A DNA stretch of 64,000 nt from Yersinia frederiksenii ATCC 33641 (GTDB taxonomy: Bacteria > Pseudomonadota > Gammaproteobacteria > Enterobacterales > Enterobacteriaceae): assembly GCF_000754805.1 (NCBI RefSeq), contig NZ_KN150731.1:3521886-3585885 (forward strand), written 5' to 3'. Both the position numbers and the translations under genes were made by a program. The notes under the pieces were generated by a model, which did no database searches, was not told the origin of the DNA, and saw only the letters and a list, made by a program, of their open reading frames with translations. This document shows, in pieces, positions 12,999 to 30,313 of the stretch (the stretch's first letter is position 1; each line of letters starts with the position of its first letter).

Positions 12999-13026
12999 CA
13001 GCCCCACTATCGGGGCTGTTTTTTTA
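12999..13026 (+). terminator. Rho-independent terminator of the RND operon
   Basis: CAGCCCC (12999-13005) pairs with GGGGCTG (13012-13018), followed by an uninterrupted T-tract. The last codon of the convergent island-1 MFS gene touches its T-tract, so island 1 ends exactly here. Confidence 0.9.
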
Positions 13027-14229
13027 TCTGGTGATCTTTTTTAGATGGGTAAATAATAAATATCCTGTCATTGCAAGGCCAGTACTGCCAGCGATAACGA
13101 ATGTTATTGGGATGCCGATATAATGAGCAAAACCGGAGCCGATAACGGAGCCAGCAACCAGTGTTGCTAATTGCGCGCTGCGGCAACTGGTTGAAATGAT
13201 ACCTAACATACTTGTGGGTGCTTCATTCTGTAAAACAATATTAAATGACATCATAATGCAGGAGTAACAAAAACCATTAATAAACCAAATAGTACAGAAA
13301 ATATAAATATGGAGATTGTCAAAAATCAGACAGAAGGTACCGGCAATAAGTACCGTTATACTAAAGCCAATAAGCCCAAAAATCATCAACCATTGGTTGC
13401 CAAATAATGAATGTGTTCTCTTGAATAAAAACCCAGATAAAATAGCACCAGCAGCGGTGCAACTCACAATAATGCCAAATGTATTGGGACCAAACCCCTG
13501 TTCTCTTAATAAAGCAGAAAGAATGGAATCATATAAACCAAGTGTAAGCGAGGCGGCCATAACGACTAAAAAAGAAGAGTAAAATCCAGGTTTTTTCCGA
13601 ATAATATTATATGCTAGTCTGAATCTAGGCAGGGTTTCTGTTGCTGTTTTTGGTTTTTTAACCCATCCAATAATAAAGCCCATTCTTATGGTAAGTAACA
13701 CTGTGGTTAGTGTCATGATGGCTGTTAAATAAAAAATACTTTGCAAGTTTATTGTTATAGAGATGAAAGATACAAATAAAGGTGAGGCTATTTTTATGCA
13801 TTGATCACTAATATTACTTAATGCGGTAGTTGATAATATTTGCTCTTTATTTAATAATTCCCTGATAAGTATTTGTTCAGCTGGTGAAAACCCTAAATTA
13901 CTGATTCCTTTTAAAAAAATCCCAATAAAAAATAATTCCTGATTAGTTTCAGTTGCAAGCCAGAGTGAAGTTGTCAATCGAGCTAATGAACTTGCTAATA
14001 ATATTACCACCGGCGAGTATCTATCTGCCAATTGACCAATAAATGGCCCTAATAATAGCCCAGGGAAACCATATAATACCGCTGCGATTCCTAGCTGGTA
14101 GGCGGGGGCATTAAAATGGAAACTCATTATAGTGAATATAAGAGTAAAATCAATCCAAACTGAGATAGAGTTAAACACTCGAGATGTAAATAAATAAGGG
14201 AATCCAGCTATAATAAATAATTTTAGCAT
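13024..14229 (-). CDS. MFS transporter (probable exporter) of island 1
   Basis: 401-residue major facilitator protein with about 12 hydrophobic segments. GPFIGQLADRYSP (about residues 57-69) is the loop 2-3 signature of MFS carriers, shaped like the drug/metabolite exporter branch. It is the last gene of a minus-strand unit: its ATG overlaps the TAA of the carbamoyltransferase (TAATG). The coupling suggests that it exports the product of the two upstream enzymes and the short peptide gene. Codons are A+T-rich compared with the RND and dha genes on either side. Substrate cannot be read from sequence. Confidence 0.85.
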   Translation of the reverse strand: MLKLFIIAGFPYLFTSRVFNSISVWIDFTLIFTIMSFHFNAPAYQLGIAAVLYGFPGLLLGPFIGQLADRYSPVVILLASSLARLTTSLWLATETNQELFFIGIFLKGISNLGFSPAEQILIRELLNKEQILSTTALSNISDQCIKIASPLFVSFISITINLQSIFYLTAIMTLTTVLLTIRMGFIIGWVKKPKTATETLPRFRLAYNIIRKKPGFYSSFLVVMAASLTLGLYDSILSALLREQGFGPNTFGIIVSCTAAGAILSGFLFKRTHSLFGNQWLMIFGLIGFSITVLIAGTFCLIFDNLHIYIFCTIWFINGFCYSCIMMSFNIVLQNEAPTSMLGIISTSCRSAQLATLVAGSVIGSGFAHYIGIPITFVIAGSTGLAMTGYLLFTHLKKITR

Positions 14230-15812
14230 TAAAAATATTTCTTATTTATTTCATGTGAATGTTTTTTTGTATAAAACCGATTGTTGATAACAAAACCATC
14301 AAGATCTCTTTGCTGCATATACTCTGCTAATTCACTTGTTTTATTAATGAAACCTTTTCCATTAAAATTCAGAGAGGTATTACATAGTACTCCATAGCCG
14401 GTTAGCTTTTTAAAAGATAAGAGAAGTTGGTAAATATGATTATTCTGATTTTCATTAACTGTTTGTGGTCTCGCTGAACCATCAATATGAGTAATTGCTT
14501 GAAGTTTTTTATCTAAAACATAGGTAAAAAATAACATGTGAGGACTGGTTTTTTTTATACCAAAAATATCAATTGCATCACTTTGTATACAAATGGGAGC
14601 TATTGGCCTAAAAGATTCTCTGTTTTTTATTGTATTTAAACGTGCTAGTGTAGATTTATTAAAAGGTGCTGCTAATATTGACCTATTTCCTAATGCTCTT
14701 GGGCCGATCTCAGCATTACCACCCACCCAACCGATTATATTTCCCTCGGCTAATGCCGCAGCAATATTGTCATAGTCTAAATTTTTATATTCAAGACCAA
14801 CTATATCTATTATATCATCATTAAATTTTTGGCCGCAGTAAACGCTCCAATCAATTTTTGCATGACCTGTAAAATAAAGTTGTGCATCAATGGCTGTTCC
14901 AATAGCAGAACCTGAATCATTTGTGCATGGAGGAATAAATACATCATCAAATAATCCACAATTTAGCCATTTCCTATTCCAGTCACAATTTAAACCGCAA
15001 CCACCGCTTATTAATAGTGGTAACTTTTTGTTAACAAGTTTTTTGACTTTATTATAGAATTTTCTGAAAATAGCATCAGAAAAATGCCCTGCAAATTGCT
15101 TAAAAACATCACTTTCGACGCCTATATTATATAAGTGTGACTTTACAAATTGAGTTTTACATAGTCGTTCATGACACAATGGTATTGATAATAAATAGGA
15201 TATTAATTCATCATCCTGAATTGTTCTCTTTTCCCTATTACAGTAAGCTGCCAAAGCCATTATTTTACCAGCATCACCTAACCTTACTTGGCCTTGAGTA
15301 AATGGAAAGGTTTTATCAGCAATTCCATATGAGAAAGCATAACGAATGCCTATATCAGGAATAATATCAGCCAGTTTTTTAATTTTAACATATTGGTCTA
15401 TATAATAGAATGAACCAATACGTCCTTCCCAAAGAAGTGCATAGCAAGGTTTTCCTTGGTGAAAAGGCGACATACCGTAGGCACACAATAAATGTGATCT
15501 TTCATGAGAAGAGGTAAAATAAAGAGCGTCATACTTGAGGAAATTTATTTTTGTTGGCTTGGTTAACTCTAATCCGAAGTAACCAGCCCCAATATTAGAA
15601 CTATGCAAACTATTTCCTGATGACCAACCACTAAGAGAAATAATATCTGGTGAGTCATTAATAGTTGATAATGCTTCTATAATGCACTCTGAAGTAATAC
15701 CACAATAACGAAATCCAGAACATTTTTCTGCTTCATGAGAGAAAATTAACTGGTTATCTTTAATATAAGAAATGCTGCCATCATGCCCTGGTTTAAACGA
15801 TAAAATTTTCAT
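14229..15812 (-). CDS. Carbamoyltransferase, NodU/CmcH/TobZ family (island 1)
   Basis: 527 residues. The family transfers a carbamoyl group from carbamoyl phosphate, through carbamoyl-adenylate, to a hydroxyl of a natural product (NodU, CmcH, NovN, TobZ). Visible are a start FKPGHDGSISYI, the metal-site region SHERSHLLCAYGMSPF, GGCGLNCDWNRKW, TNDSGSAIGTA, and the C-terminal GPRALGNRSILAAPF, FRPIAPI, HIDGSARPQTV and LLCNTSLN-like VLCNTSLNFNGKG. The His-x3-His pair is kept, but the following DG of relatives appears as WEG (LLWEGRIG). It overlaps the sagB-like stop by four bases (ATGA). The acceptor may be the short peptide upstream or a small molecule. Confidence 0.9.
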   Translation of the reverse strand: MKILSFKPGHDGSISYIKDNQLIFSHEAEKCSGFRYCGITSECIIEALSTINDSPDIISLSGWSSGNSLHSSNIGAGYFGLELTKPTKINFLKYDALYFTSSHERSHLLCAYGMSPFHQGKPCYALLWEGRIGSFYYIDQYVKIKKLADIIPDIGIRYAFSYGIADKTFPFTQGQVRLGDAGKIMALAAYCNREKRTIQDDELISYLLSIPLCHERLCKTQFVKSHLYNIGVESDVFKQFAGHFSDAIFRKFYNKVKKLVNKKLPLLISGGCGLNCDWNRKWLNCGLFDDVFIPPCTNDSGSAIGTAIDAQLYFTGHAKIDWSVYCGQKFNDDIIDIVGLEYKNLDYDNIAAALAEGNIIGWVGGNAEIGPRALGNRSILAAPFNKSTLARLNTIKNRESFRPIAPICIQSDAIDIFGIKKTSPHMLFFTYVLDKKLQAITHIDGSARPQTVNENQNNHIYQLLLSFKKLTGYGVLCNTSLNFNGKGFINKTSELAEYMQQRDLDGFVINNRFYTKKHSHEINKKYF

Positions 15813-16900
15813 TGGTTACTTTTCCCATGGCTAGCTTGACGCTTTATAGTTTCAAGTAATTTAGGGGCAAAGGGGGAACCAGAACTAGGCCCAGCTCCTA
15901 AGAAGAACATTACAGATTCTTCGACTTCATTTACGCTAAGTAACTTATTTATTTCCCTATCTAAAAAATAACCTGTTGGCCAAGAGCCTAACTGCATGGC
16001 AGTAGTAATTAGTTGAAATGTTTGAACTAAACAGCCTATATCAAACAATGCGACTCGATAGGCTCTGGAGTGAGGATATTTCCACCACATTTTTTTAAAG
16101 CATGATGTGATAAATATACCAAAAGCCAAGTCTTTAGCGAACATTTGGGCACAAAGCAGACTACCTAATTTTTCACCACTAATATCGGTACTGATTAGTG
16201 TCAATTCATGTCTATGAGAGTGATAGTGATATATTCCTGGTACTAGTCCGATAATATTTAAAGCAACCAAGTAAGCTTCACTCGTTTGTAGGGAACCTCC
16301 TGATGGGGAGGTGCGGCGATAACCAATAGGTTTTAGTCCTACGGCTGTCATTTCGGTACGGTTTGGACCATGGGGTATACCAAACGTCCAGAATAATACC
16401 TCGGCAACTTTTTGCAGTGAAATCGCTTCTATCTTGAATTCTCTACTGGTTTTTCGTGCCAATAGAGTATCCATCAGTTTTTTATCAGATAAGAAGTTTT
16501 TGTTCGGTTTTGGTAATGGGATTTTCTTACCTGAGCGTTGATAGTCTAACTTGGGAATATTCTCTGTTATTGATGCGCAGTAATTTACATATCCTTCATA
16601 ATTATCATCAGTTGGTAAGTCCATTCCTTTGTTTAAGATAACTTGAGTTCCAATGTGAAATATTTTTGATAGACAATCCCAACCCCAGTAAGACATATCT
16701 CTTTCATCATTATCTAATATTTTACTATCCAGAATGTTTTTATCTATTAATGAGTTAGTAAACGAATCTCCATTGACAAGTTCTCTTATTCTTTTTATAT
16801 AATCATTGTTTATCTCATATTGATTATGATATCTATAATCCCATAAAATAAATTCACCATTAATTATCGCTATAAAAATAAAAGGGTCAGCTTTTTTCAT
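15809..16900 (-). CDS. SagB-type dehydrogenase (nitroreductase fold)
   Basis: About 363 residues; FMN-dependent oxidoreductase of the SagB/ThcOx family. In thiazole/oxazole-modified peptides these enzymes oxidise azolines to azoles; in other pathways they dehydrogenate peptides or small molecules. The N-terminal half is a poorly conserved domain. From about residue 150 come ARKTSREF (FMN phosphate contact region), YRRTSPSGGSLQTSEAYLV, VPGIYHYHSHRHEL, SRAYRVALFDIGCLVQTFQLIATA-like and FFLGAG. No YcaO cyclodehydratase is nearby, so azole formation is not supported. Two starts are possible, ATG 16900 and GTG 16906. The short peptide ORF ends 63 bases upstream of the GTG. Confidence 0.88.
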   Translation of the reverse strand: MKKADPFIFIAIINGEFILWDYRYHNQYEINNDYIKRIRELVNGDSFTNSLIDKNILDSKILDNDERDMSYWGWDCLSKIFHIGTQVILNKGMDLPTDDNYEGYVNYCASITENIPKLDYQRSGKKIPLPKPNKNFLSDKKLMDTLLARKTSREFKIEAISLQKVAEVLFWTFGIPHGPNRTEMTAVGLKPIGYRRTSPSGGSLQTSEAYLVALNIIGLVPGIYHYHSHRHELTLISTDISGEKLGSLLCAQMFAKDLAFGIFITSCFKKMWWKYPHSRAYRVALFDIGCLVQTFQLITTAMQLGSWPTGYFLDREINKLLSVNEVEESVMFFLGAGPSSGSPFAPKLLETIKRQASHGKSNQ

Positions 16901-16925
16901 TTTCACTCTACTTATCTATAAGCAT

Positions 16926-16948
16926 GGCAGTCAGGTGGACTGACCGCC
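16926..16948 (-). promoter_or_regulatory. Hairpin between the short peptide ORF and the sagB-like gene
   Basis: GGCAGTCAG (16926-16934) pairs with CTGACCGCC (16940-16948) with one mismatch and a five-base loop. No T-tract follows on the minus strand. It could protect the peptide mRNA 3' end or act as a partial stop, so that peptide exceeds enzymes, as in many RiPP operons. Confidence 0.55.
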
Positions 16949-16969
16949 GATTGATATTAAAAACTATGG

Positions 16970-17047
16970 TTACACGGGATTAACGGGGCCTGTATAAGCA
17001 TCATTGGATTGATATGAAAGGCTTGGCTCTATAGATATTTTGTTCAT
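16970..17047 (-). CDS. Candidate 25-residue RiPP precursor peptide
   Basis: A 78-base ORF reading ATG at 17047-17045 to TAA at 16972-16970. The product begins MNKISIEPSL, continues with SYQSNDAY and ends TGPVNPV. TAAGG (complement of 17056-17060) is a ribosome site eight bases before the ATG. It is the first ORF of the island-1 unit and is separated from the sagB-like gene by a hairpin. It has seven hydroxyl residues (five Ser/Thr and two Tyr) that a carbamoyltransferase could use, and no Cys. I recognise no homologue. It could also be a regulatory leader peptide. Reasons to believe: position, spacing, ribosome site and enzyme context. Confidence 0.5.
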   Translation of the reverse strand: MNKISIEPSLSYQSNDAYTGPVNPV

Positions 17048-17549
17048 TATAAATACCTTATGAATTTATTAGGTTGGACTTTATTAATTGGTTGTTTTAG
17101 TCACTTAAAATAAATGACTAGAATAGGCTAAGTGATACTCTCAATTTATACAATCTTAAGTTTATTTTTTAAGAGTTTCTTTTTATATTCTTCTGAGGTT
17201 TTTCTATGTATAAAATAAGTAATTTAGTCGAATTTTATTAGTTAATATTAGGAGGGTAATTTATGACAATTAAATGAAATTAGTGGACCGCAGATGATCC
17301 TCTCGACTGGGCATAGGCGATATTAACTCATACACAAAACCAAATTGTGCGCTACTTCTCTTCCTGCCCCTGAGTCTTCGTCGTGTTGTTCCAATATGAA
17401 ACATCATTCCTCCATTATTGTTCCATTATGGAACGTTTTCGATATCCATTTTCAGCTTATTTTTTGCGCTTATAGTGGTTCCAGTTTCATCAAATTGACC
17501 CTAAAAATTATTCATTAGCACGTTATCTCTTACGCTACAGGAGCAAGGT
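17048..17549. promoter_or_regulatory. Divergent control region between island 1 and gldA
   Basis: 502 bases without a convincing gene. The island-1 promoter should lie in the A+T-rich half (17060-17250); TAGTCA/TGACTA arms at 17098-17103 and 17115-17120 form an operator-like inverted repeat. A strong AGGAGGG (17250-17256) precedes an ATG at 17263 that runs only four codons (MTIK) and overlaps, by ATGA, a seven-codon frame: a stub, perhaps of a lost gene. Base composition changes near 17280 to the ordinary, less A+T-rich type. Two operator-like palindromes for gldA follow. Confidence 0.55.
17388..17434 (+). promoter_or_regulatory. Paired GTTCCA-type operators upstream of gldA
   Basis: GTTCCATTATGGAAC at 17420-17434 is a perfect 15-base inverted repeat. 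GTTCCAATATGAAAC at 17388-17402 is the same site with two changes. Centres are 32 bases apart, about three helical turns, so one dimeric regulator could bind both on one face. A third half site, GTTCCAG, starts at 17478. The spacing and symmetry suggest a dimeric repressor, for example of the IclR type, but no regulator gene is adjacent. Confidence 0.5.
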
Positions 17550-22109: not shown

Positions 22110-22139
22110 AAATAGCAGCCTAACGTAGGGCTGCTATTT
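22110..22139 (+). terminator. Terminator hairpin of the dha operon, inside the end of the island-2 glycosyltransferase
   Basis: AAATAGCAGCC (22110-22120) pairs with GGCTGCTATTT (22129-22139). The right arm and loop also encode the last six codons and stop of the convergent glycosyltransferase (ending IAALR). Confidence 0.75.
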
Positions 22140-23475
22140 GCGGTACTAAATAACCTAGTGGCGTCAAAATTTGTTTTTTCCAGTTGTATTGTTCTTTTAT
22201 TAATGTGGCGCTGGCTTGCCTGATCTTATCTATTTCAAATTGGGTTAACTGGCAAATCTGACGAATCACTTGCGCTAAATTAGCCGCATCCCCCGGATTA
22301 TGTCGAAATCCATTAATACCATGTTCAACTTGCTCACTGAAACCTCCTGAGTCGGCAACGACTAATAGTGCTCCCTGCTTTCTGGCTAACCAGCGTGACT
22401 CCATAGGAATCAATCCATTCGGCTCATTCTCAGCAGAAAGAACACATACCCGCGTATTACGCCATTGAATAAGACATGCCATCAGTTCGCGATCAAACGA
22501 ATGTACGATTGAAGATTGTATGTTGAGTAAGCCAGCTAATGCCGATAGTTCCGGTAAAATAGGTTCGCTCATAATGACAGGATGAATTTCACCATTCAGA
22601 TAACTGATTGCCTTAAGTAATAAATCATGGCGTTTGTAGCGTACACCTCTTCCGAGTGTAACGGCGAGAGGTTGTTCCAGGGGTATTCCATGAGATGACA
22701 ATATGTTACTGATTTCGCGATCACTACGGATTCGGAACCAAGGGTCATTAATATCTATTCCGGCGGGAACCGGTAGCAATGTTTGTGGAGCTGCGCCGTA
22801 TTGTGTCACTAAATGATTAGCGAGAAAGTGGCTGATATGACCAACTTTAATTGTCGAGTCGATCTTAGCCCAATGGATAGGTAATGATTCAGCCATAAGA
22901 CGTTCTGGATTAGGTAATGGCATTTCATGATTAAATGCGGTGCCATGAGAAATATAGATAATCTTTAAATTAACCCCCTCAAGAGCGGCGTGTAAGCTAG
23001 CAATTAAAGGGGTAAATGCGAATGACGGCTCATGACAGAATACCAACGTAATATCATAGTTATCACTGATATCAATGACCTTTGCCGCCGCTGCCGCCGA
23101 GGATATTTTCCAATTTTGTAAATCCCCAAGAAAAGTATCCCCATATGGCCATAAACATCCAGTTCCTTTACCGGATGTCATGTTAGGTACAGTGGAAAAG
23201 GTCCCGCGCATATGATGAATTTTATCTACATAACGAGCGCGGTTAATTTTATCGAAGAACTCACTGTATTTACTGCATGCAATTTCAATAAAGTGTGGTT
23301 CTAAGTGAATGTTGTTATGAGATAAAAATTTAATTACTTCGGGTAAAACCTGAATCTGGCCTCTTATATAAGAGCCGACGCCACCAACAAAAATTTGAAT
23401 ACCCTCAGTGGCTAAATGAATAATGCCAATTTTTAGGCTATTTCTACGATTGTACTTAACTTTATGTCTTGGCAT
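22120..23475 (-). CDS. GT4-family glycosyltransferase (island 2)
   Basis: 451-residue GT-B enzyme. N-terminal acceptor half: IGIIHLATEGIQIFVGGVGSYIRG, like the GGVG loop of GT4 and glycogen-synthase-type enzymes. C-terminal donor half: VTLGRGVRYKRHDLLLKAI and SAENEPNGLIPMESRWLA, which holds the E-x7-E retaining motif, then VADSGGFSEQVEHGINGF. It is the last gene of the minus-strand island-2 unit, 56 bases behind the carbamoyltransferase, with GAGG before the ATG. Donor and acceptor are unknown. LPS synthesis is possible, but the neighbours suggest a secondary metabolite. Confidence 0.85.
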   Translation of the reverse strand: MPRHKVKYNRRNSLKIGIIHLATEGIQIFVGGVGSYIRGQIQVLPEVIKFLSHNNIHLEPHFIEIACSKYSEFFDKINRARYVDKIHHMRGTFSTVPNMTSGKGTGCLWPYGDTFLGDLQNWKISSAAAAAKVIDISDNYDITLVFCHEPSFAFTPLIASLHAALEGVNLKIIYISHGTAFNHEMPLPNPERLMAESLPIHWAKIDSTIKVGHISHFLANHLVTQYGAAPQTLLPVPAGIDINDPWFRIRSDREISNILSSHGIPLEQPLAVTLGRGVRYKRHDLLLKAISYLNGEIHPVIMSEPILPELSALAGLLNIQSSIVHSFDRELMACLIQWRNTRVCVLSAENEPNGLIPMESRWLARKQGALLVVADSGGFSEQVEHGINGFRHNPGDAANLAQVIRQICQLTQFEIDKIRQASATLIKEQYNWKKQILTPLGYLVPQIAALR

Positions 23476-23531
23476 AAAAACCTCGATTTTAACCAGAAAG
23501 TAAAATGTTTATTGACTCACATTATCACCTG

Positions 23532-25229
23532 TCATTTTTTAGATATCTTATAGTTATTGATGAATAAATAGTCTAAACCACAATTTAAAAATAAATGGAT
23601 TGCATCGGCGGGCGTTTCAACTATTGGCATCCCTTTAGTGTTCAATGATGTATTCAGTAGTATAGGAATTCCGGTCTTATCAAAAAAAGCCGTAATTAAT
23701 TTATGGAATTTTTTATTAAGATGTTGTTTAACAGTTTGCACTCGAGCACTGCCATCGATATGAACAATTGAGGGGAGATCAGCTCGATATTGTTCTTTTA
23801 CATAAGCAATAAAGAGCATGTAATCACTGTCATGAGTTAGATTGAAATAGTCATGTACTTTTTCATGTAAAACTGCGGGCGCAAATGGTCTAAAATCCTC
23901 CCGGAACTTAACATTGGCATTAATATGATCTTTCATCTGCGGGTTGCGAGGATCAGCAAGAATACTTCTATTCCCTAAGGCTCGTGGCCCAAATTCAGAC
24001 TCTCCCTGGAACCAAGCAATAACGTGGCCTGCCGCAATAGATTCTGCCGCCCTGGTTTCAATCTCATCATCATAGGTATACTCAATTCTCTCCTTATACT
24101 TTTCCAGCTCCGTTAGTACGCTAATATCATTATAATTTTTACCGAAGAATGTTGAGCCACAGTGCCGGGTCCGTCCTTTTTTAAGGACCTCCAGCCAACC
24201 ATAATAGCAACAACCGATCGAAAGCCCATTGTCACCTGCCGCAGGCTGAATATAGAGATGCTCGAACTCGCAATCATTAATAAGTTTCTCATTAGCCGTT
24301 GCATTTAATGCCACGCCGCCAGCGTAAGCAAAATTCGCCATAGGATAAAGCTGGTAGTAATAGTTGAACAGATAGAATAGAGCCTCCTCAAGCTTGGTTT
24401 GTGCCCACCAAGCCAGATCTGCATAGTATTGGAAGTTATCATGGAAATGCGTTGGGTGACTGTTTAACTGTGGGTCAATATTTATCCACCAGTCATTACG
24501 CAATATGACTTTGCCTGAATTGAAAAAGAAAGGTTGCCAGTCAATAATATCAGGTCTGCCATAGGGTGCTAACCCCATCAATTTACCCGCACAATCAAGT
24601 TCCCCAAAAATATACAGTGCAATCCCTTCATAGAATTCACCAATAGAATTTTCTATTTCCCATGTCGCTGCGGGATATTCTTTTCTATCTTTGCGATTAA
24701 CCCAGCGGGAAAAATCTTTAAATATAGGTGTTATTTTCCCATTTTGGTAAACATAATAACTGCACGTTTCCCAGTAGCGATAGCGATTGTTGATGTGGAT
24801 ATTATTCGTGCCATAGACACCTTCACTCAGATCATTGCAGTTATCCAAGCTGCCACCATGTCCATCAATAACTACAATCCCCATATCATCAAAGGGCGAT
24901 GTTCCTATTGCACTATAGGCATGAGCCAAATGATGAGAGAGTGTGACTACAGGAACCATAGACGGTAATACTCTATTCTTTCGGTACTCTAATTTTTCGC
25001 TGAATAGTGGGTTATGAGAGTTTTGCTCAACTATCAGAGTGAGGTCACTGTATTCAATGCCGGCCGCATCTAAACAGTATTGAATAGTCATGTTATCATT
25101 GAATCCATCATGCTTTATTCTTGATATTCTTTCTTTTTCTACAGCGAATATAATTTTTCCATCTTTCATTAAACAAGTTGAACCATCATGAGAGAGAGCT
25201 GTGCCAAGAATATAAATAGGTTTTTGCAT
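23532..25229 (-). CDS. Carbamoyltransferase, NodU/CmcH/TobZ family (island 2)
   Basis: 565 residues, a complete family member. Start YILGTALSHDGSTCLMKDG. The HHLAHA metal motif is intact (VVTLSHHLAHAYSAIG), followed by VVIDGHGGS. Then come YAGGVALNATANEKL, GDNGLSIGCCYYGW, GPRALGNRSILADPR, FREDFRPFAPAVL, HIDGSARVQTV and LLNTSLNTKGMPIVETP. It would O-carbamoylate a hydroxyl using carbamoyl phosphate and ATP. Ribosome site AAGGAT. It is 31 bases behind the GMC-type oxidoreductase. It differs strongly from the island-1 enzyme, so the two are not a recent duplication. Confidence 0.92.
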   Translation of the reverse strand: MQKPIYILGTALSHDGSTCLMKDGKIIFAVEKERISRIKHDGFNDNMTIQYCLDAAGIEYSDLTLIVEQNSHNPLFSEKLEYRKNRVLPSMVPVVTLSHHLAHAYSAIGTSPFDDMGIVVIDGHGGSLDNCNDLSEGVYGTNNIHINNRYRYWETCSYYVYQNGKITPIFKDFSRWVNRKDRKEYPAATWEIENSIGEFYEGIALYIFGELDCAGKLMGLAPYGRPDIIDWQPFFFNSGKVILRNDWWINIDPQLNSHPTHFHDNFQYYADLAWWAQTKLEEALFYLFNYYYQLYPMANFAYAGGVALNATANEKLINDCEFEHLYIQPAAGDNGLSIGCCYYGWLEVLKKGRTRHCGSTFFGKNYNDISVLTELEKYKERIEYTYDDEIETRAAESIAAGHVIAWFQGESEFGPRALGNRSILADPRNPQMKDHINANVKFREDFRPFAPAVLHEKVHDYFNLTHDSDYMLFIAYVKEQYRADLPSIVHIDGSARVQTVKQHLNKKFHKLITAFFDKTGIPILLNTSLNTKGMPIVETPADAIHLFLNCGLDYLFINNYKISKK

Positions 25230-25259
25230 AATTAATATCCTTATTAATTTAGAGCAAAC

Positions 25260-26762
25260 TCAGTTAAGTAGATAGGCGAGTCGGCGTGATAGTGCCAGCG
25301 TGGTTAGGGATGGGTTAGCGGCTCCAGGGCGTGGGAATGTACTTGGACCAACAGCAAATAAATTACTTATATGATTAAACTCTTGGTTTTCATTCAATAT
25401 ATCACCTAGTGGCAGAGTACTACTTTCGTGATTTTCGGTACCAAGAGGGCTTATCCATGTCACTGGAACATTATAATTGACTATCCTTGATGGGGAGCGA
25501 AAATGATGATGTACATCTCCCATTGTCCGGACATGTACAATAAATTTGGCTTCAAAAGCCAAAGGTTCAAAAGGGATATTTGCATCATGGCAAATTCCAC
25601 ACCAAAATGTATTTAACTCATCCTTTTCTCTTTGTATTAATGTGTCTTCCGCATTACCTAAATCACAGGATATGGATAACGGCATATCTTTATTATCTAT
25701 TTCTGTGGTGATACAACCATGAACAGATGGAATTTGTTCACCCATCGTCCAGGCTTCTAATTCAATACCAAAATCTGATGTACTAATAGTAAAGAATAAA
25801 TTAAACCTCTCACCATACAGGCTGGGGCTAAAAAAGATAGCATCGGGCCTGTTATCCATTAATTCTCTCAACTTGCTAGGGACGTTGTTTCGCTCAAATG
25901 TTACATTAAATCCCTGAACAATATGATCAACCAGGCCAGTCATTTTTTTTGCTATAGAATGCCCTGTATCATAGAGCACTTGAGTGGCTAAACGTGAGTT
26001 TTCAATAGTACCTAAGGCAAGAACACATTTATCAGCCCAAACATGATGTATCTCATTCGTGCCCATATTCTTGAGTTTGGCTCCCACACATTTTCCATTT
26101 CTAATAATAAGTGCGACGGCTTCATATCCAGAAATGATGGGAGGAGGTATCCTTAATTGATTATTTTTTTTCCAGTAGGATAAAGGGGAATAGGCTTCCC
26201 AACGATCCGATGAATCAATCATTCTGGTTACTTGAGGTGTAATCTTAAATTCAAAATTAGCAAGTTTAAAAGAATAGTCATTATCATCACTCTTTTCTGC
26301 CCATGCCAACAGTTCAGACTGAACTTGTGTATAAAGTGCCGGGCCACCCAACCAACTTTCGGTGAGATCACTGACAACGTTGGTGGGCCAGTATTTAAGA
26401 GTATTTGCTTCTATTGGTAGGATTACACCATGCCAATATAGTGAGCGGCCACCTACCCTTCGCCGTAAGCAGGTACCTTTCGAAAAATGAGGTTCACTCA
26501 ATGAACGCCATGAACGATAGGCATATTTATCGGTACTTTCATTTTTCCAAAATTCATCGGCACGCAGGTAATCCTCTCCAGCATTAATATGATTGAAATC
26601 GTCAGCAGGCCCCGCGTCAATAACAACGATATCTTCAATCTCTCTTTCATTTAAATGCTTAGCTAACTCCAAACCTGACATTCCGGCCCCTAATATAAGA
26701 ATGTGAATTTTTGAGGGGATATCTGGTGCCGTTTTGTGTGTGCTAGAATACCTGATATTCAT
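25260..26762 (-). CDS. GMC-type FAD oxidoreductase (island 2)
   Basis: 500 residues. An N-terminal FAD-binding motif HILILGAGMSGLELAKHL lies around residues 20-36. RRRVGGRSLYWHG is the second FAD loop. The C-terminal block ENHESSTLPLGDIL...AVGPSTFPRPGAANPSLTTLALSRR has the active-site His of glucose-methanol-choline oxidases and dehydrogenases; the usual final His/Asn pair is represented by the Asn in AANPSL. It would oxidise an alcohol, such as a sugar or hydroxy-amino-acid carbinol, to carbonyl. Ribosome site GAGG precedes the ATG. Substrate unknown. Confidence 0.82.
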   Translation of the reverse strand: MNIRYSSTHKTAPDIPSKIHILILGAGMSGLELAKHLNEREIEDIVVIDAGPADDFNHINAGEDYLRADEFWKNESTDKYAYRSWRSLSEPHFSKGTCLRRRVGGRSLYWHGVILPIEANTLKYWPTNVVSDLTESWLGGPALYTQVQSELLAWAEKSDDNDYSFKLANFEFKITPQVTRMIDSSDRWEAYSPLSYWKKNNQLRIPPPIISGYEAVALIIRNGKCVGAKLKNMGTNEIHHVWADKCVLALGTIENSRLATQVLYDTGHSIAKKMTGLVDHIVQGFNVTFERNNVPSKLRELMDNRPDAIFFSPSLYGERFNLFFTISTSDFGIELEAWTMGEQIPSVHGCITTEIDNKDMPLSISCDLGNAEDTLIQREKDELNTFWCGICHDANIPFEPLAFEAKFIVHVRTMGDVHHHFRSPSRIVNYNVPVTWISPLGTENHESSTLPLGDILNENQEFNHISNLFAVGPSTFPRPGAANPSLTTLALSRRLAYLLN

Positions 26763-26822
26763 TGTATATCCTCTAATGTAAAATGTTTTTTTAAAAGTTA
26801 ATAGTATTAAAACTAAATAATT

Positions 26823-28229
26823 TCATCTATGCTGCAATCGATATGTAAATTCCTCCCAAGGTTCTTTAGGAAATTTAGCTTGTACAAGTTTTTTATTACT
26901 CGCCAATCGAATTCCTATCTCTAATTCCCCTATTGCATGCATTCGTATCCATTCAAATAACTGCTGAGCCGCTTCTGTAGGACGATCTGGCATCACTTTT
27001 ATATGGTGATATTCTGATCCATAAAACTCAGTGAAAGCGGAATACTCTGTTACTGCGCAAGGGAGACCAGCTATTGCTGCTAGAGCAGGCCCTAAGCCGA
27101 CACTCTCCACATTTTCCACATTGGGGGTAAATAAAACCGCACCTGATAATACATGGCAAATAATAAGCAAATCAATTTCATCTAAATACCATTTGTTATC
27201 TCTATTTTTATACGTCTGAAGTGGAACTTCATCCAAAAATATAATGTCCTCATTAAGGTTCAATAAATCAACTTGTTCTGTTAGATAATATGCATATTCG
27301 GGGTCTTCATTCATATTGCCAAATATAAGTAGTTTTGGGGTGTCTAAATTGTTTTCTTTGTAAATATTTAATAGAGAATTAAATATATCGATTGATATCT
27401 CTATACCTTTAACTCGAAATATACGAACTGGAACTATAATAATGGACGAATTTGTAGAGATATTATGCTGTTTTAAAAAGTTAACATGAATGTGACTAAA
27501 GTTTGAGGTATCTATATCGGGTAATATATTCGGGATCACATCTGCTGTCAGTTTTGTTGGATAACTTTTGCATTCATTTGCTAAAGCCTCTGACGCGACG
27601 ATCCATCTAGTGTAAATATTATCCTGTGGGATCGGTGTCAAAATATTTGGCATTTCAGGGTATAATCTTTCTGTCTGTTCATAGATAGCGTAGCTATTAA
27701 AGAGGTCATGATCCCAGAAAATCACTCCACCATAGTCTTTTTCATCCCAGTATTTTCTCGCCGCATTATGGATTGCCAGATTGACCGGCACGGCATCAGA
27801 GAGCGTCATGTTTAAACAGAAAAGCCAATCAATGTCATTATCTTCAAGCCAATGGGTAAAATAATCTTGATAGTATTCAGAAATTGAAATTATCTCTTTT
27901 TCAATAGCGATTATTTCCATCTGACTTAAGGAATCATATTTTGCCACTTTACTCCTTATATTAATAAATTGAGAGCTGAAATCCTCACTGCATGTTGAGT
28001 ATTGGTGAATGGAATTGACTTTCATCCATGTTGGATAATGTGAATCCTGGCTACCGTAAGGGAAGAAATTTACTTTATCTGGCCGCCATGAGAACCCTAA
28101 ATCTGTTGGTATCACATCAAATATGATGTTTTTTCTTATAGCGATTTCAACCACGTTTCTAAATATGGTTAGCAGGCCGCTTGTAGGAAGACCATCTCCT
28201 GATATAAGAGCCCACTTCATTTTCTTCAT
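26823..28229 (-). CDS. Probable GT-B glycosyltransferase (island 2)
   Basis: 468 residues. The C-terminal half looks like a GT4 donor domain: IIIVPVRIFRVKGIEISIDIF, LLIFGNMNEDPEYAYYL and NVESVGLGPALAAIAGLPCAVTEYSAFTEFYG. The last has an E/E pair around VESVGLGPALAA in place of the usual E-x7-E. The N-terminal half contains VIFWDHDLFNSYAIY and is not typical. AGGAG precedes ATG 28229. It is one of two different glycosyltransferases in the unit, so the product probably carries two sugars or is itself a short oligosaccharide. Confidence 0.7.
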   Translation of the reverse strand: MKKMKWALISGDGLPTSGLLTIFRNVVEIAIRKNIIFDVIPTDLGFSWRPDKVNFFPYGSQDSHYPTWMKVNSIHQYSTCSEDFSSQFINIRSKVAKYDSLSQMEIIAIEKEIISISEYYQDYFTHWLEDNDIDWLFCLNMTLSDAVPVNLAIHNAARKYWDEKDYGGVIFWDHDLFNSYAIYEQTERLYPEMPNILTPIPQDNIYTRWIVASEALANECKSYPTKLTADVIPNILPDIDTSNFSHIHVNFLKQHNISTNSSIIIVPVRIFRVKGIEISIDIFNSLLNIYKENNLDTPKLLIFGNMNEDPEYAYYLTEQVDLLNLNEDIIFLDEVPLQTYKNRDNKWYLDEIDLLIICHVLSGAVLFTPNVENVESVGLGPALAAIAGLPCAVTEYSAFTEFYGSEYHHIKVMPDRPTEAAQQLFEWIRMHAIGELEIGIRLASNKKLVQAKFPKEPWEEFTYRLQHR

Positions 28230-28245
28230 TATGTATCTCCTAAGG

Positions 28246-29421
28246 TTAAATATTTAATTTAATCGATTTTGATGATAGTATGCTCGTCAGTGCAAAGGTT
28301 GCTATGCAACTGATAAATACATAAAAAAATGCAATTCTCAAGGATGTTTTATCCGCTAGCATACCGATTAGTGGTGGTGTGATTAACAGACCAACTCGTG
28401 ACATCCAAGTAGCGAAAGTGATCCCACTGGTTGCATTGATATTCGGTAATTGACCAATAAATGATATGGTTAGCGGAAATACAACTGATATACCCAAGCC
28501 AATTAACGAAAATCCCAGTATTGTAGAAATAAATGAATTAATACCTATAATTAGAATTACACCTAGAGCCGATAATGTAATCCCACATTTGAGAATTATT
28601 ATTCTGCCAAATTTATTCGTAAAGTAATCACCAGAAACTCGACCGACAACCATTAATATTTGACATGCAAGATACGGTAAACCTGAAATCACAGATGAAA
28701 CGTCATATGAGTCCTTCATGTATATTGCGCCCCAGATACTTGCTGTTTCTTCTATTGCACATGTAAATACAAGTATAATTAAAGCAAGGGCAAATAGTTG
28801 TTTTTCTGTTTGTCTTACACCTTTTTGCGTATATTTATGTGAAATAAATTTAATGTCTAACTGTTCATTGCAGAAATATACTATATAAATTATAAGCATG
28901 ATTAAATTGACAAATAGTACCGTAATACTAAATTTTTCCATGGAAAAACCAAAACCAATAGCAGATACAGCGATAAGTCCCCCCCATATTGTCCCAATAC
29001 TGCCTGCACCATGAAGACGATTGATAAAGCTTTGCCCATATTGTTTTTGTATATTGATGGCCTGTACGTTGATGCAGGTATCACCCCAGGAATCAAAAAT
29101 ACCGAACAGAAACAGTAATAATACAATGGCATACCATGATGACGAAAACGAAACAATTGATATAGAAATAATTAGGAACAGAAAACTTATAATTGTTGCC
29201 CAATACAATCCGATAAAGTTAATAAATTTTTTAGAAAGTAACCCAAAAATGATTGATCCAGCAGGAATTGCCGACAACATCACTCCAACCATATAGTTGT
29301 TAAGATTGAATTTTTCTTTTATATCTGGAATCCATGGAACTAAACTGGCATATACAACTCCGTGAATAAAAAAGAGTATCGCTAAAGTAATGCTTTTTTT
29401 TCTTTGTATTTCTATAGTCAT
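28246..29421 (-). CDS. MFS transporter (island 2)
   Basis: 391 residues with about 12 hydrophobic segments. Helix 1 is LAILFFIHGVVYASLVPWIPDIKEKF, the helix 1/loop pattern of the YbjJ/sugar-type MFS branch. FGIFDSWGDTCINVQAINIQ and RLHGAGSIGTIWGGL are landmarks of the same group. It lies between the dioxygenase and the first glycosyltransferase, with 16-25 base gaps, so it is part of the unit. It may export the finished product or import a precursor. Confidence 0.85.
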   Translation of the reverse strand: MTIEIQRKKSITLAILFFIHGVVYASLVPWIPDIKEKFNLNNYMVGVMLSAIPAGSIIFGLLSKKFINFIGLYWATIISFLFLIISISIVSFSSSWYAIVLLLFLFGIFDSWGDTCINVQAINIQKQYGQSFINRLHGAGSIGTIWGGLIAVSAIGFGFSMEKFSITVLFVNLIMLIIYIVYFCNEQLDIKFISHKYTQKGVRQTEKQLFALALIILVFTCAIEETASIWGAIYMKDSYDVSSVISGLPYLACQILMVVGRVSGDYFTNKFGRIIILKCGITLSALGVILIIGINSFISTILGFSLIGLGISVVFPLTISFIGQLPNINATSGITFATWMSRVGLLITPPLIGMLADKTSLRIAFFYVFISCIATFALTSILSSKSIKLNI

Positions 29422-29446
29422 TATGGTTTTTTCGTGGGTTTTATAG

Positions 29447-30313
29447 TTAAGATATATAATTGAAATCGAAGCCTAATATATTTCTATAGCCTATTCCTAA
29501 AGATGTTTTTTTTAATTTTATAGGTGTTACTTTATGCCATATAGTTGAGTTTTTATCTATATGGAATAATCCCTCTCCACATTCTAATGTATGTGATTTA
29601 ATGATCCGTTTCTTCTCAATACAATAGAGTTCACTGGTGCCACCTTCAATATTGTATTTATCAATAACTAATGCAGATACAATATAGTTGCTCCCATCTT
29701 GATGTAAACCTTCGGGTGAGTTACAAGCTGAAAGTGTCGAGCTATCAATAAGTAAAGATATTTGATGGCAAGTGACTTCAACTTTTTTTAGTTTTACCTG
29801 AGGTTCGCACTCACATAACATTTCCACACATTTTTTAATAAGAATTTTCAGTAGAATTGAGTGGCTTAATGTCCTGTCCATAGGCGGAAATCTACGTATT
29901 AACTTCCGCAAGTCTAATGGGTGGTCTTCATGTTGAGAAAATTCTGTTAACTCTGGGAGAATAATATGATTTACTTCCCATTTTTTATTAACATATTCAA
30001 CCATAAATCGACTAATACCTCTTTTTCTAAAGGGTTTATAGGCATGAAATTTTCGCTGGTCTTCTATGGATAAACTTGATATTAACTCTTGAATGCTATT
30101 GGGGACTAAATTCCCATCAAGAAAGCATTGTGCTTCTTGCAAAATAGTTTTTTTATCATTGATATATTTAGTTATTAGAAATCTCAATTGAGAAAGTTTT
30201 ATATCATTCTTATCCCATCCTAATGATTCAAATGATAGTTCTTTCTTTACTGCGTCGATATTTACACCAAATTCATTTATATTAAATTGAATTATTTTAT
30301 ATTTAATTCCCAT
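29447..30313 (-). CDS. 2-oxoglutarate/Fe(II) dioxygenase, amino-acid-hydroxylase-like (island 2)
   Basis: 288 residues, first gene of the unit. The iron facial triad is visible as EGLHQDGSNYI (His-x-Asp) and the later His in STIWHKVTPI, with the 2-oxoglutarate Arg in GIGYRNILGFDF. VDKYNIEGGTSELY between them is typical of the 2OG-Fe_Oxy_2 group that includes free L-isoleucine, methionine and leucine hydroxylases. The N-terminal 120 residues are not clearly conserved. A hydroxylated amino acid would supply a hydroxyl for later glycosylation or carbamoylation. AGGA lies rather far (about 12 bases) from the ATG. Confidence 0.72.
   Translation of the reverse strand: MGIKYKIIQFNINEFGVNIDAVKKELSFESLGWDKNDIKLSQLRFLITKYINDKKTILQEAQCFLDGNLVPNSIQELISSLSIEDQRKFHAYKPFRKRGISRFMVEYVNKKWEVNHIILPELTEFSQHEDHPLDLRKLIRRFPPMDRTLSHSILLKILIKKCVEMLCECEPQVKLKKVEVTCHQISLLIDSSTLSACNSPEGLHQDGSNYIVSALVIDKYNIEGGTSELYCIEKKRIIKSHTLECGEGLFHIDKNSTIWHKVTPIKLKKTSLGIGYRNILGFDFNYIS

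Follow-up and report, generated by a model that had tools for sequence, protein, structure and literature searches.

The operon in the window

The 64,000-nucleotide stretch of Yersinia frederiksenii ATCC 33641 analysed here (hereafter the window, in whose coordinates positions are given unless a locus is named) carries on its minus strand, from 17047 down to 13024, a row of four open reading frames (ORFs): a 25-codon ORF followed by genes for a SagB-type nitroreductase, a NodU/TobZ-type carbamoyltransferase (CT) and a carrier of the major facilitator superfamily (MFS) (Table 1). The sagB, CT and MFS frames overlap by ATGA and TAATG. An earlier note on this DNA had reported this gene row, the ribosome site of the 25-codon ORF and both overlaps, all of which were confirmed from the ORF coordinates, and the identities that it had assigned to the SagB, NodU-type CT and MFS proteins were borne out by Pfam and NCBIfam scores. 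The G+C content of the operon is 34.5%, compared with 45.4% for the whole window and 48% for the window without the operon and without a second cluster at 22120-30313, suggesting acquisition from elsewhere. Judging from its gene content and conservation, the operon is likely to make a small ribosomal peptide natural product, in which the 25-residue peptide would be the precursor, modified by SagB and CT and exported by the MFS carrier.

Table 1. Features of the short-peptide operon
Feature	Position	Strand	Basis
Peptide gene MNKISIEPSLSYQSNDAYTGPVNPV, 25 aa, proposed precursor; putative leader MNKISIE, putative core motif SNDAY	16970..17047	-	sequence, conservation
Shine-Dalgarno-like AAGG of the peptide gene	17056..17059	-	sequence reading
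Hairpin GGCGGTCAG-tccac-CTGACTGCC, between peptide stop and sagB	16926..16948	-	sequence reading, folding z-scores
SagB-type dehydrogenase, 363 aa; ATG start 16900, possible GTG start 16906	15809..16900	-	Pfam/NCBIfam
NodU/TobZ-type CT, 527 aa	14229..15812	-	Pfam, PDB matches
MFS carrier, 401 aa, probable product exporter	13024..14229	-	Pfam

Conservation of the peptide gene

A SagB match at E <= 1e-10 was found in 6 of 197 related genomes; five of them are Yersinia (of 25 Yersinia genomes searched), and the sixth holds a distant SagB in another genus. At all five Yersinia loci the peptide ORF stands intact ahead of sagB; frame-disrupting variation in this ORF, named in the earlier note as evidence that would speak against its proposal, was seen at none of them. 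Uncorrected pairwise counts over five distinct DNA sequences gave nonsynonymous (pN) and synonymous (pS) values of 0.035 and 0.354, a pN/pS of 0.10, and, judged by these sequences, the peptide gene is under purifying selection. The SagB of Yersinia G014 is 87% identical to the window SagB, as is that of a Y. vastinensis contig.

A search of 398 genomes of the phylum led to a second, gammaproteobacterial genus, probably Pseudomonas, in which 89 of 298 genomes gave a SagB profile match (E <= 1e-50); the profile (A6) already held three SagBs of this genus. The 70 loci examined come from 68 of the 89 genomes, the remaining 21 lying outside the count (among them G833, looked at separately). An ORF of 21-58 aa precedes sagB at every one of the 70 loci, 67 times with a Shine-Dalgarno-like motif and three times without, its stop lying 52-106 nt from the modelled sagB start. 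Together with the five Yersinia loci, this agrees with the prediction of the earlier note that in relatives, too, a conserved short ORF would immediately precede sagB. The 67 ORFs had been preselected for a Shine-Dalgarno motif, a start M[KNQRTE] and a distance of <130 nt from sagB; at the other three loci (L148, L154, L164), where there is no Shine-Dalgarno ORF, the peptides are ATG ORFs chosen by eye with the motif in view, and at L163 the second of two possible peptide starts was used.

All 75 peptides, 70 from the second genus and five from Yersinia, begin with M[KNRQET].{1,2}[IV].[LIM][EQ]; for the 67 preselected ORFs, the independent part of this test is [IV]-x-[LIM]-[EQ] alone. In 3750 dinucleotide shuffles of the 75 regions, an ATG ORF of 20-60 aa preceded by a Shine-Dalgarno-like motif arose 105 times (2.8%), and in no shuffle did such an ORF carry the leader in its slightly stricter form M[KNR].[IV].[LIM][EQ]. 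A second control set comprised 16 loci that lack this layout (seven with a CT only, nine with other SagBs); over both strands, the leader motif occurred there in three ATG ORFs in all (size range 15-70 aa), none of which has a Shine-Dalgarno-like motif or SN[DN]AY. In 48 distinct peptide genes of 23 aa, pN/pS is 0.38, with A12, N13, L14 and K21 invariant and a conserved Cys, Ser or Thr at no position; these 23-mers come mostly from loci with an AurF-type enzyme and therefore tell less about the CT type, whose motif has one conserved Ser. No NCBIfam model matched any of nine short peptides and no Pfam model any of three, the window peptide being in both sets. Two features by which ribosomally synthesised and post-translationally modified peptides (RiPPs) are recognised are found here, namely a putative precursor encoded beside modifying enzymes and a conserved leader (75 of 75) joined to divergent cores that vary by cluster type.

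The tailoring enzyme changes with the core

Behind SagB, the 70 loci of the second genus carry an AurF-type N-oxygenase (55 loci, identified through their resemblance to a single reference example with a match to Pfam PF11583), a CT (five), an MFS gene only (nine) or nothing (one). The five CTs are 45-54% identical to the window CT. The motif SN[DN]AY occurs at all five of these CT loci and at all five Yersinia loci, compared with 0 of 55 AurF loci, and [AS]N[LMW] is found at 54 of the 55 AurF loci. Three of the second-genus CT peptides read I-E-P-T-L-N-N-Q-S-N-D-A-Y, where Yersinia has I-E-P-[ST]-L-S-Y-Q-S-N-D-A-Y, and the genes behind them follow the order SagB-CT-MFS; at the other two CT loci a gene for a tetratricopeptide repeat (TPR)-methyltransferase lies between SagB and CT. 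The MFS protein is 29-30% identical to that of the window at three of the five CT loci, the fetched stretch ending earlier at the other two (L162 and L163, where it stops inside the CT, before any MFS). A single genome, G1142, carries both the CT and the AurF types (L127, L159). Peptides of the AurF type were also found at five of the nine MFS-only loci, where the AurF gene may therefore be missed or broken.

Taken together, the conserved short ORF, the common leader, the agreement between core and tailoring enzyme and a common clade of CT-type SagBs (see below) indicate that the peptide, as leader plus core, is very probably the substrate of the operon's enzymes. The earlier note had proposed exactly this role; the match between core class and adjoining enzyme lends it support, and the role is still deduced from sequence comparison.

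The SagB-type enzyme

The window SagB matches the Pfam Nitroreductase family (1.2e-14) and scores above the cut-off of antibiot_sagB TIGR03605 (115.9 bits against 78.4) and below that of TIGR04511 SagB_rel_DH_2 (121.6 bits against 240). It has an N-terminal extension of about 115 aa and a W-K-Y motif at residues 273-275, which is invariant in the SagB alignment, is aligned with CyaGox in the PDB match and is taken here to be catalytic; from its family, the enzyme presumably uses flavin mononucleotide (FMN). In a SagB tree of 71 rows, the seven CT-type SagBs, that of the window included, form one clade (SH-aLRT 99 by a quick method). This tree leaves out the duplicates L089-L091, L092 with its broken sagB (G833), three rows that are broken or truncated (L135, L156 and L164) and two with in-frame stops (L153 and L161); L160 and L165 were entered as the open piece only.

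No YcaO gene is found among the operon genes, the sole YcaO match in the genome lying at C1:1417821, 2.1 Mb away, in line with the local absence claimed by the earlier note. Since the operon has no YcaO and the 23-aa cores have no conserved Cys, Ser or Thr, SagB cannot be finishing azolines as a general rule. The reading of the operon as a cluster for linear azol(in)e-containing peptides or thiazole/oxazole-modified microcins (LAP/TOMM) was rejected on these two grounds, and from the sequences azole chemistry appears unlikely.

The carbamoyltransferase and the carrier

The window CT matches Carbam_trans_C (6.5e-53) and Carbam_trans_N (9.6e-25) of Pfam, both above cut-off, and its PDB matches, within residues 264-517, include a decarbamoylnovobiocin carbamoyltransferase, GdmN and TobZ. 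A GHDG motif near the N-terminus presumably has a catalytic role. An assignment to NodU proper was rejected on score (NF041651, 260 bits against a cut-off of 1000). The carrier matches MFS_1 of Pfam (2.9e-28).

A relative about 52% identical to the window CT, annotated as two pieces, is encoded on the Salmonella enterica plasmid NZ_CP030205.1 (L052, 5995-11532); its neighbours are a thymidylate synthase, an inosine/xanthosine triphosphatase, an amidohydrolase and an MFS carrier, a set that looks like a modified-nucleoside pathway.

Proposed pathway and alternatives

In the pathway proposed here, the first residues M-N-K-I-S-I-E would form a short leader common to the whole family and the segment around S-N-D-A-Y the core. 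SagB, presumably with FMN, would oxidise the core (-2 Da) with no prior heterocyclisation by YcaO. Since the CT- and AurF-type cores share Asn-x-Ala followed mostly by an aromatic residue, the SagB reaction is placed tentatively at or near this Asn-x-Ala-aromatic segment. The CT would add a carbamoyl group (+43 Da), most likely on the Ser or Tyr hydroxyl of SN[DN]AY, a protease encoded elsewhere would trim the peptide, and the MFS carrier would export the small trimmed product. Related clusters retain peptide, hairpin, SagB and MFS and exchange the middle enzyme together with the core, using a CT, an AurF-type N-oxygenase, a methyltransferase plus a CT, or none.

The hairpin between the peptide stop and sagB, on which the earlier note is silent, forms in all five Yersinia spacers (z -2.9 to -5.7), and over the 75 spacers, Yersinia included, the median folding z is -2.6, with 72% below -2. 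It probably lets the peptide mRNA exceed the enzyme mRNA, or shields the 3' end of the former. The same hairpin, present behind the ORF at most loci, is what the main rival explanation draws upon, according to which the short ORF is a regulatory leader whose translation, together with the hairpin, controls an operon that modifies a small molecule such as a sugar, nucleoside or amino acid. Such a role would also accord with the occurrence of CT relatives in clusters that have neither SagB nor such a peptide, and with the presence of BmdC, annotated as the oxidase of a nonribosomal peptide synthetase (NRPS), among the PDB matches of SagB. However, the core differs with the tailoring enzyme, which a pure regulator would not need, and a single leader motif at 75 of 75 loci across divergent enzyme sets is unexpected for a mere regulator; moreover, no U-run follows the hairpin (16926-16948) in Yersinia, and no codon runs typical of amino-acid attenuation were seen by eye. 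A regulatory leader is therefore considered unlikely.

A second alternative is that the peptide serves as a scaffold or carrier, or as a helper that binds SagB, with a small molecule being built on it and then released, so that the peptide itself would not be the product. Its shortness and few conserved residues, and the small molecules that MFS exporters usually carry, would suit this role, but no aminoacyl-tRNA-dependent ligase or other building enzyme turned up when the three large proteins encoded here were scanned with Pfam, and the core varies beyond the motif, as it does in precursors, which makes this explanation quite improbable. That the short ORF is spurious and the three other genes make an ordinary carbamoylated small molecule is already contradicted, despite the short ORFs with a Shine-Dalgarno-like motif that arise by chance in shuffled regions, by the pN/pS values in both genera and by the position and leader kept at all 75 loci, and hardly any weight is left to it.

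Several findings weigh against a modified peptide as the product. The CT subfamily to which the window CT belongs also occurs in other settings (42-53% identical), where its neighbours include NRPS genes in Streptomyces tendae, polyketide synthase genes in Mesorhizobium and a thymidylate synthase on a Salmonella plasmid; the window CT could therefore act on a small molecule. At all seven such plasmid loci, no SagB match and no ORF with the leader motif or SN[DN]AY directly before the CT was found; the Salmonella CT-only locus has one leader-motif ORF, on the opposite strand and without a Shine-Dalgarno motif. The operon encodes no protease, and the N-terminal 115 residues of SagB gave no convincing sequence match to a RiPP recognition element (RRE), a two-sequence fold model having a mean pLDDT of 30; RREs are frequent in RiPP systems and not universal. 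Because one clade has passed on its peptide type along with its tailoring enzyme, the match between the two stands for few independent events, though clear ones. In Yersinia, sagB is broken in three of the five genomes (G010, G018, G022), CT in G010 and G022 and MFS in G010, so that the operon is whole at two of five loci, the peptide staying intact even where sagB is broken (the breaks are covered by L003, L004, L005, L007-L009 and L012-L014); the system may be decaying in Yersinia, or the draft assemblies may contain errors. Some sagB frames of the second genus, excluded from the tree, are broken as well. Finally, the short peptides of the more distant loci in Maritalea, Priestia and Streptomyces (described below) have no clear similarity to the window peptide.

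In G010 and G022, the sagB frame is interrupted at nearly the same point (residue 271-272), next to an A run; decay, draft error and slippage are possible causes.

With regard to the wider family, the clusters probably make up a modular family of modified-peptide natural products that is RiPP-like and new, with chemistry that is predicted from the genes. A broader proposal is that they represent an undescribed and widespread RiPP class with very few parts: a precursor some 25 residues long, about seven of which form the leader, a SagB with a new, YcaO-independent oxidation around a conserved Asn, one interchangeable tailoring enzyme that co-evolves with the core, and an MFS exporter. In this proposal the class would take in the clusters of Yersinia and of the probable Pseudomonas as well as outlying members in Alphaproteobacteria, Bacillota and Streptomyces, and its tailoring enzyme would be an O-carbamoyltransferase, an AurF-type N-oxygenase, a TPR-methyltransferase plus CT, or a radical SAM (S-adenosylmethionine) enzyme plus methyltransferase; for the proposal as a whole, belief and doubt are evenly balanced.

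Comparison with known systems

The SagB enzymes known so far mainly oxidise azolines, once YcaO has acted. The LAP/TOMM systems (microcin B17 with McbC, streptolysin with SagB, CyaGox) resemble the window operon in their SagB-type dehydrogenase, WKY motif and small ribosomal precursor, but differ from it in that the operon has no YcaO cyclodehydratase and the 23-aa peptides have no conserved Cys, Ser or Thr. Given that SagB is the enzyme shared by the family and that a YcaO would find no conserved residue to act on in the best-sampled peptides, the SagB reaction would be new. Microcin C likewise has a very short precursor and an MFS exporter, but relies on the adenylation chemistry of MccB and has neither SagB nor CT. 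The window CT belongs to the same family as the O-carbamoyltransferases TobZ, GdmN, NovN and NodU, whose substrates are an aminoglycoside, an ansamycin, an aminocoumarin or a Nod factor, and is shorter, with 527 aa compared with 576-702 in the PDB chains.

A SagB-type enzyme with a small precursor and no sagC/sagD homologues has been described in cluster OS3 of Pseudomonas sp. Os17 (Os1348-1351), where loss of the precursor gene lowered antibiotic activity (PMC7726476). It differs from the window operon in its 85-aa nitrile-hydratase-like precursor, 650-aa SagB, acetyltransferase and HEXXH-motif protein, and neither a CT nor an AurF is among the genes listed there (PMC7726476). As a separate observation, L093 (G669:C12) contains a small protein and a 650-aa SagB-bearing ORF that by eye look like Os17 OS3, and the same genome has an AurF-type short-peptide cluster.

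Carbamoyltransferases are also known from RiPP pathways. Crocagin (cgn) is a RiPP with the carbamoyltransferase CgnI, whereas its tetracyclic pyrroloindoline core is built by CgnB, CgnC and CgnE, and the excerpted account makes no mention of a SagB (PMC10070186). The three large proteins of the window operon are by Pfam a Nitroreductase, a CT and an MFS carrier, none of them crocagin-like, no search with the CgnB, CgnE or CgnC sequences having been made. In the std cluster of Streptomyces thermodiastaticus, a NodU-like CT carbamoylates the precursor in vitro, on Lys, and the cluster shares with the window operon an MFS permease and a core Asn; on the other hand, it has YcaO-TfuA, a multinuclear non-heme iron-dependent oxidase (MNIO) and a peptidase fused to the CT, with no SagB among the genes listed (PMC13174530). 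This 2026 preprint counts two RiPP-associated carbamoyltransferases, those of crocagin and std (PMC13174530). In addition, RRE-carbamoyltransferase fusions appear in the RRE-Finder literature (PMC12710340), and dehydroamino acids are treated in a review (PMC10880069). In open-access full text, no description of a SagB-CT or SagB-AurF short-peptide family was recognised. The statement in the earlier note that no known class has this gene set therefore holds, within this literature, for the exact combination, but not for its parts, since the sources cited above describe CTs in crocagin and std and, in Os17, a SagB that has a small precursor beside it and no sagC/sagD homologues.

As natural products, short peptides that are carbamoylated or N-oxygenated would be out of the ordinary, and the natural swap of the tailoring enzyme with the core would constitute a ready-made experiment on substrate choice. 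Precursor genes of <60 codons, moreover, are easily overlooked by gene callers.

More distant SagB loci and a second carbamoyltransferase cluster

The first leads to a wider family came from named plasmid records. The Maritalea myrionectae locus has no CT and consists of a 25-aa ORF, preceded by a good Shine-Dalgarno motif, a hairpin, a SagB with 32% identity over 94% and then an MFS carrier. In Priestia J2 the row is a 26-aa ORF, a hairpin, a SagB and an MFS carrier, and in Streptomyces NBC_01281 a 33-aa ORF is followed by a radical SAM protein that matched RiPP maturase models below their cut-offs, a methyltransferase, SagB and MFS. The hairpins at distant loci were judged by eye, without folding, and none of the three records has a gene annotated at the short-peptide site, the gene table being incomplete. 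A scan of IMG/VR found nothing. The distant SagB loci G208, G331, G360, G560 and G036 (another genus) were set aside; comparison with the examples of MFS, CT and AurF revealed no similarity in them, and among them one leader-motif ORF was found, in G036, without a Shine-Dalgarno-like motif.

Three further loci of the same phylum, L094, L095 and L097 (G600, G663 and G619), have a 31-aa peptide, MAKKVNNAPKLTVAAGTQTVFFSQGMHYNKR, ahead of another SagB; L095 carries a near copy of it, and in L097 just the start of the peptide was seen. Comparison of these loci with the MFS examples revealed no similarity. On the Rhizobium rhododendri Ti plasmid (L061, 4932-8363), sagB is followed directly by genes for a protein that weakly matches amidases and for an MFS carrier, with no convincing short ORF before sagB. 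The peptides of Streptomyces (L059, 2358-2459) and Maritalea (L051, 5798-5875) have alike C-termini, LDLNGNC and LDVNGVC, forming a C-terminal Cys motif, though their SagBs are far apart.

Within the window, a second and separate CT cluster lies beyond the dha genes at 22120-30313, also on the minus strand. A joint cluster of this region with the sagB operon was considered and rejected, since the second CT is absent from G014, which has an intact sagB operon, yet is present in 19 of 25 Yersinia genomes (E <= 1e-100), a distribution that looks like that of a genus-level small-molecule or glycan pathway. The cluster comprises two glycosyltransferases, the CT, a protein with weak matches to GMC/FAD oxidoreductases, an MFS carrier and a 2-oxoglutarate-Fe (2OG-Fe) dioxygenase.

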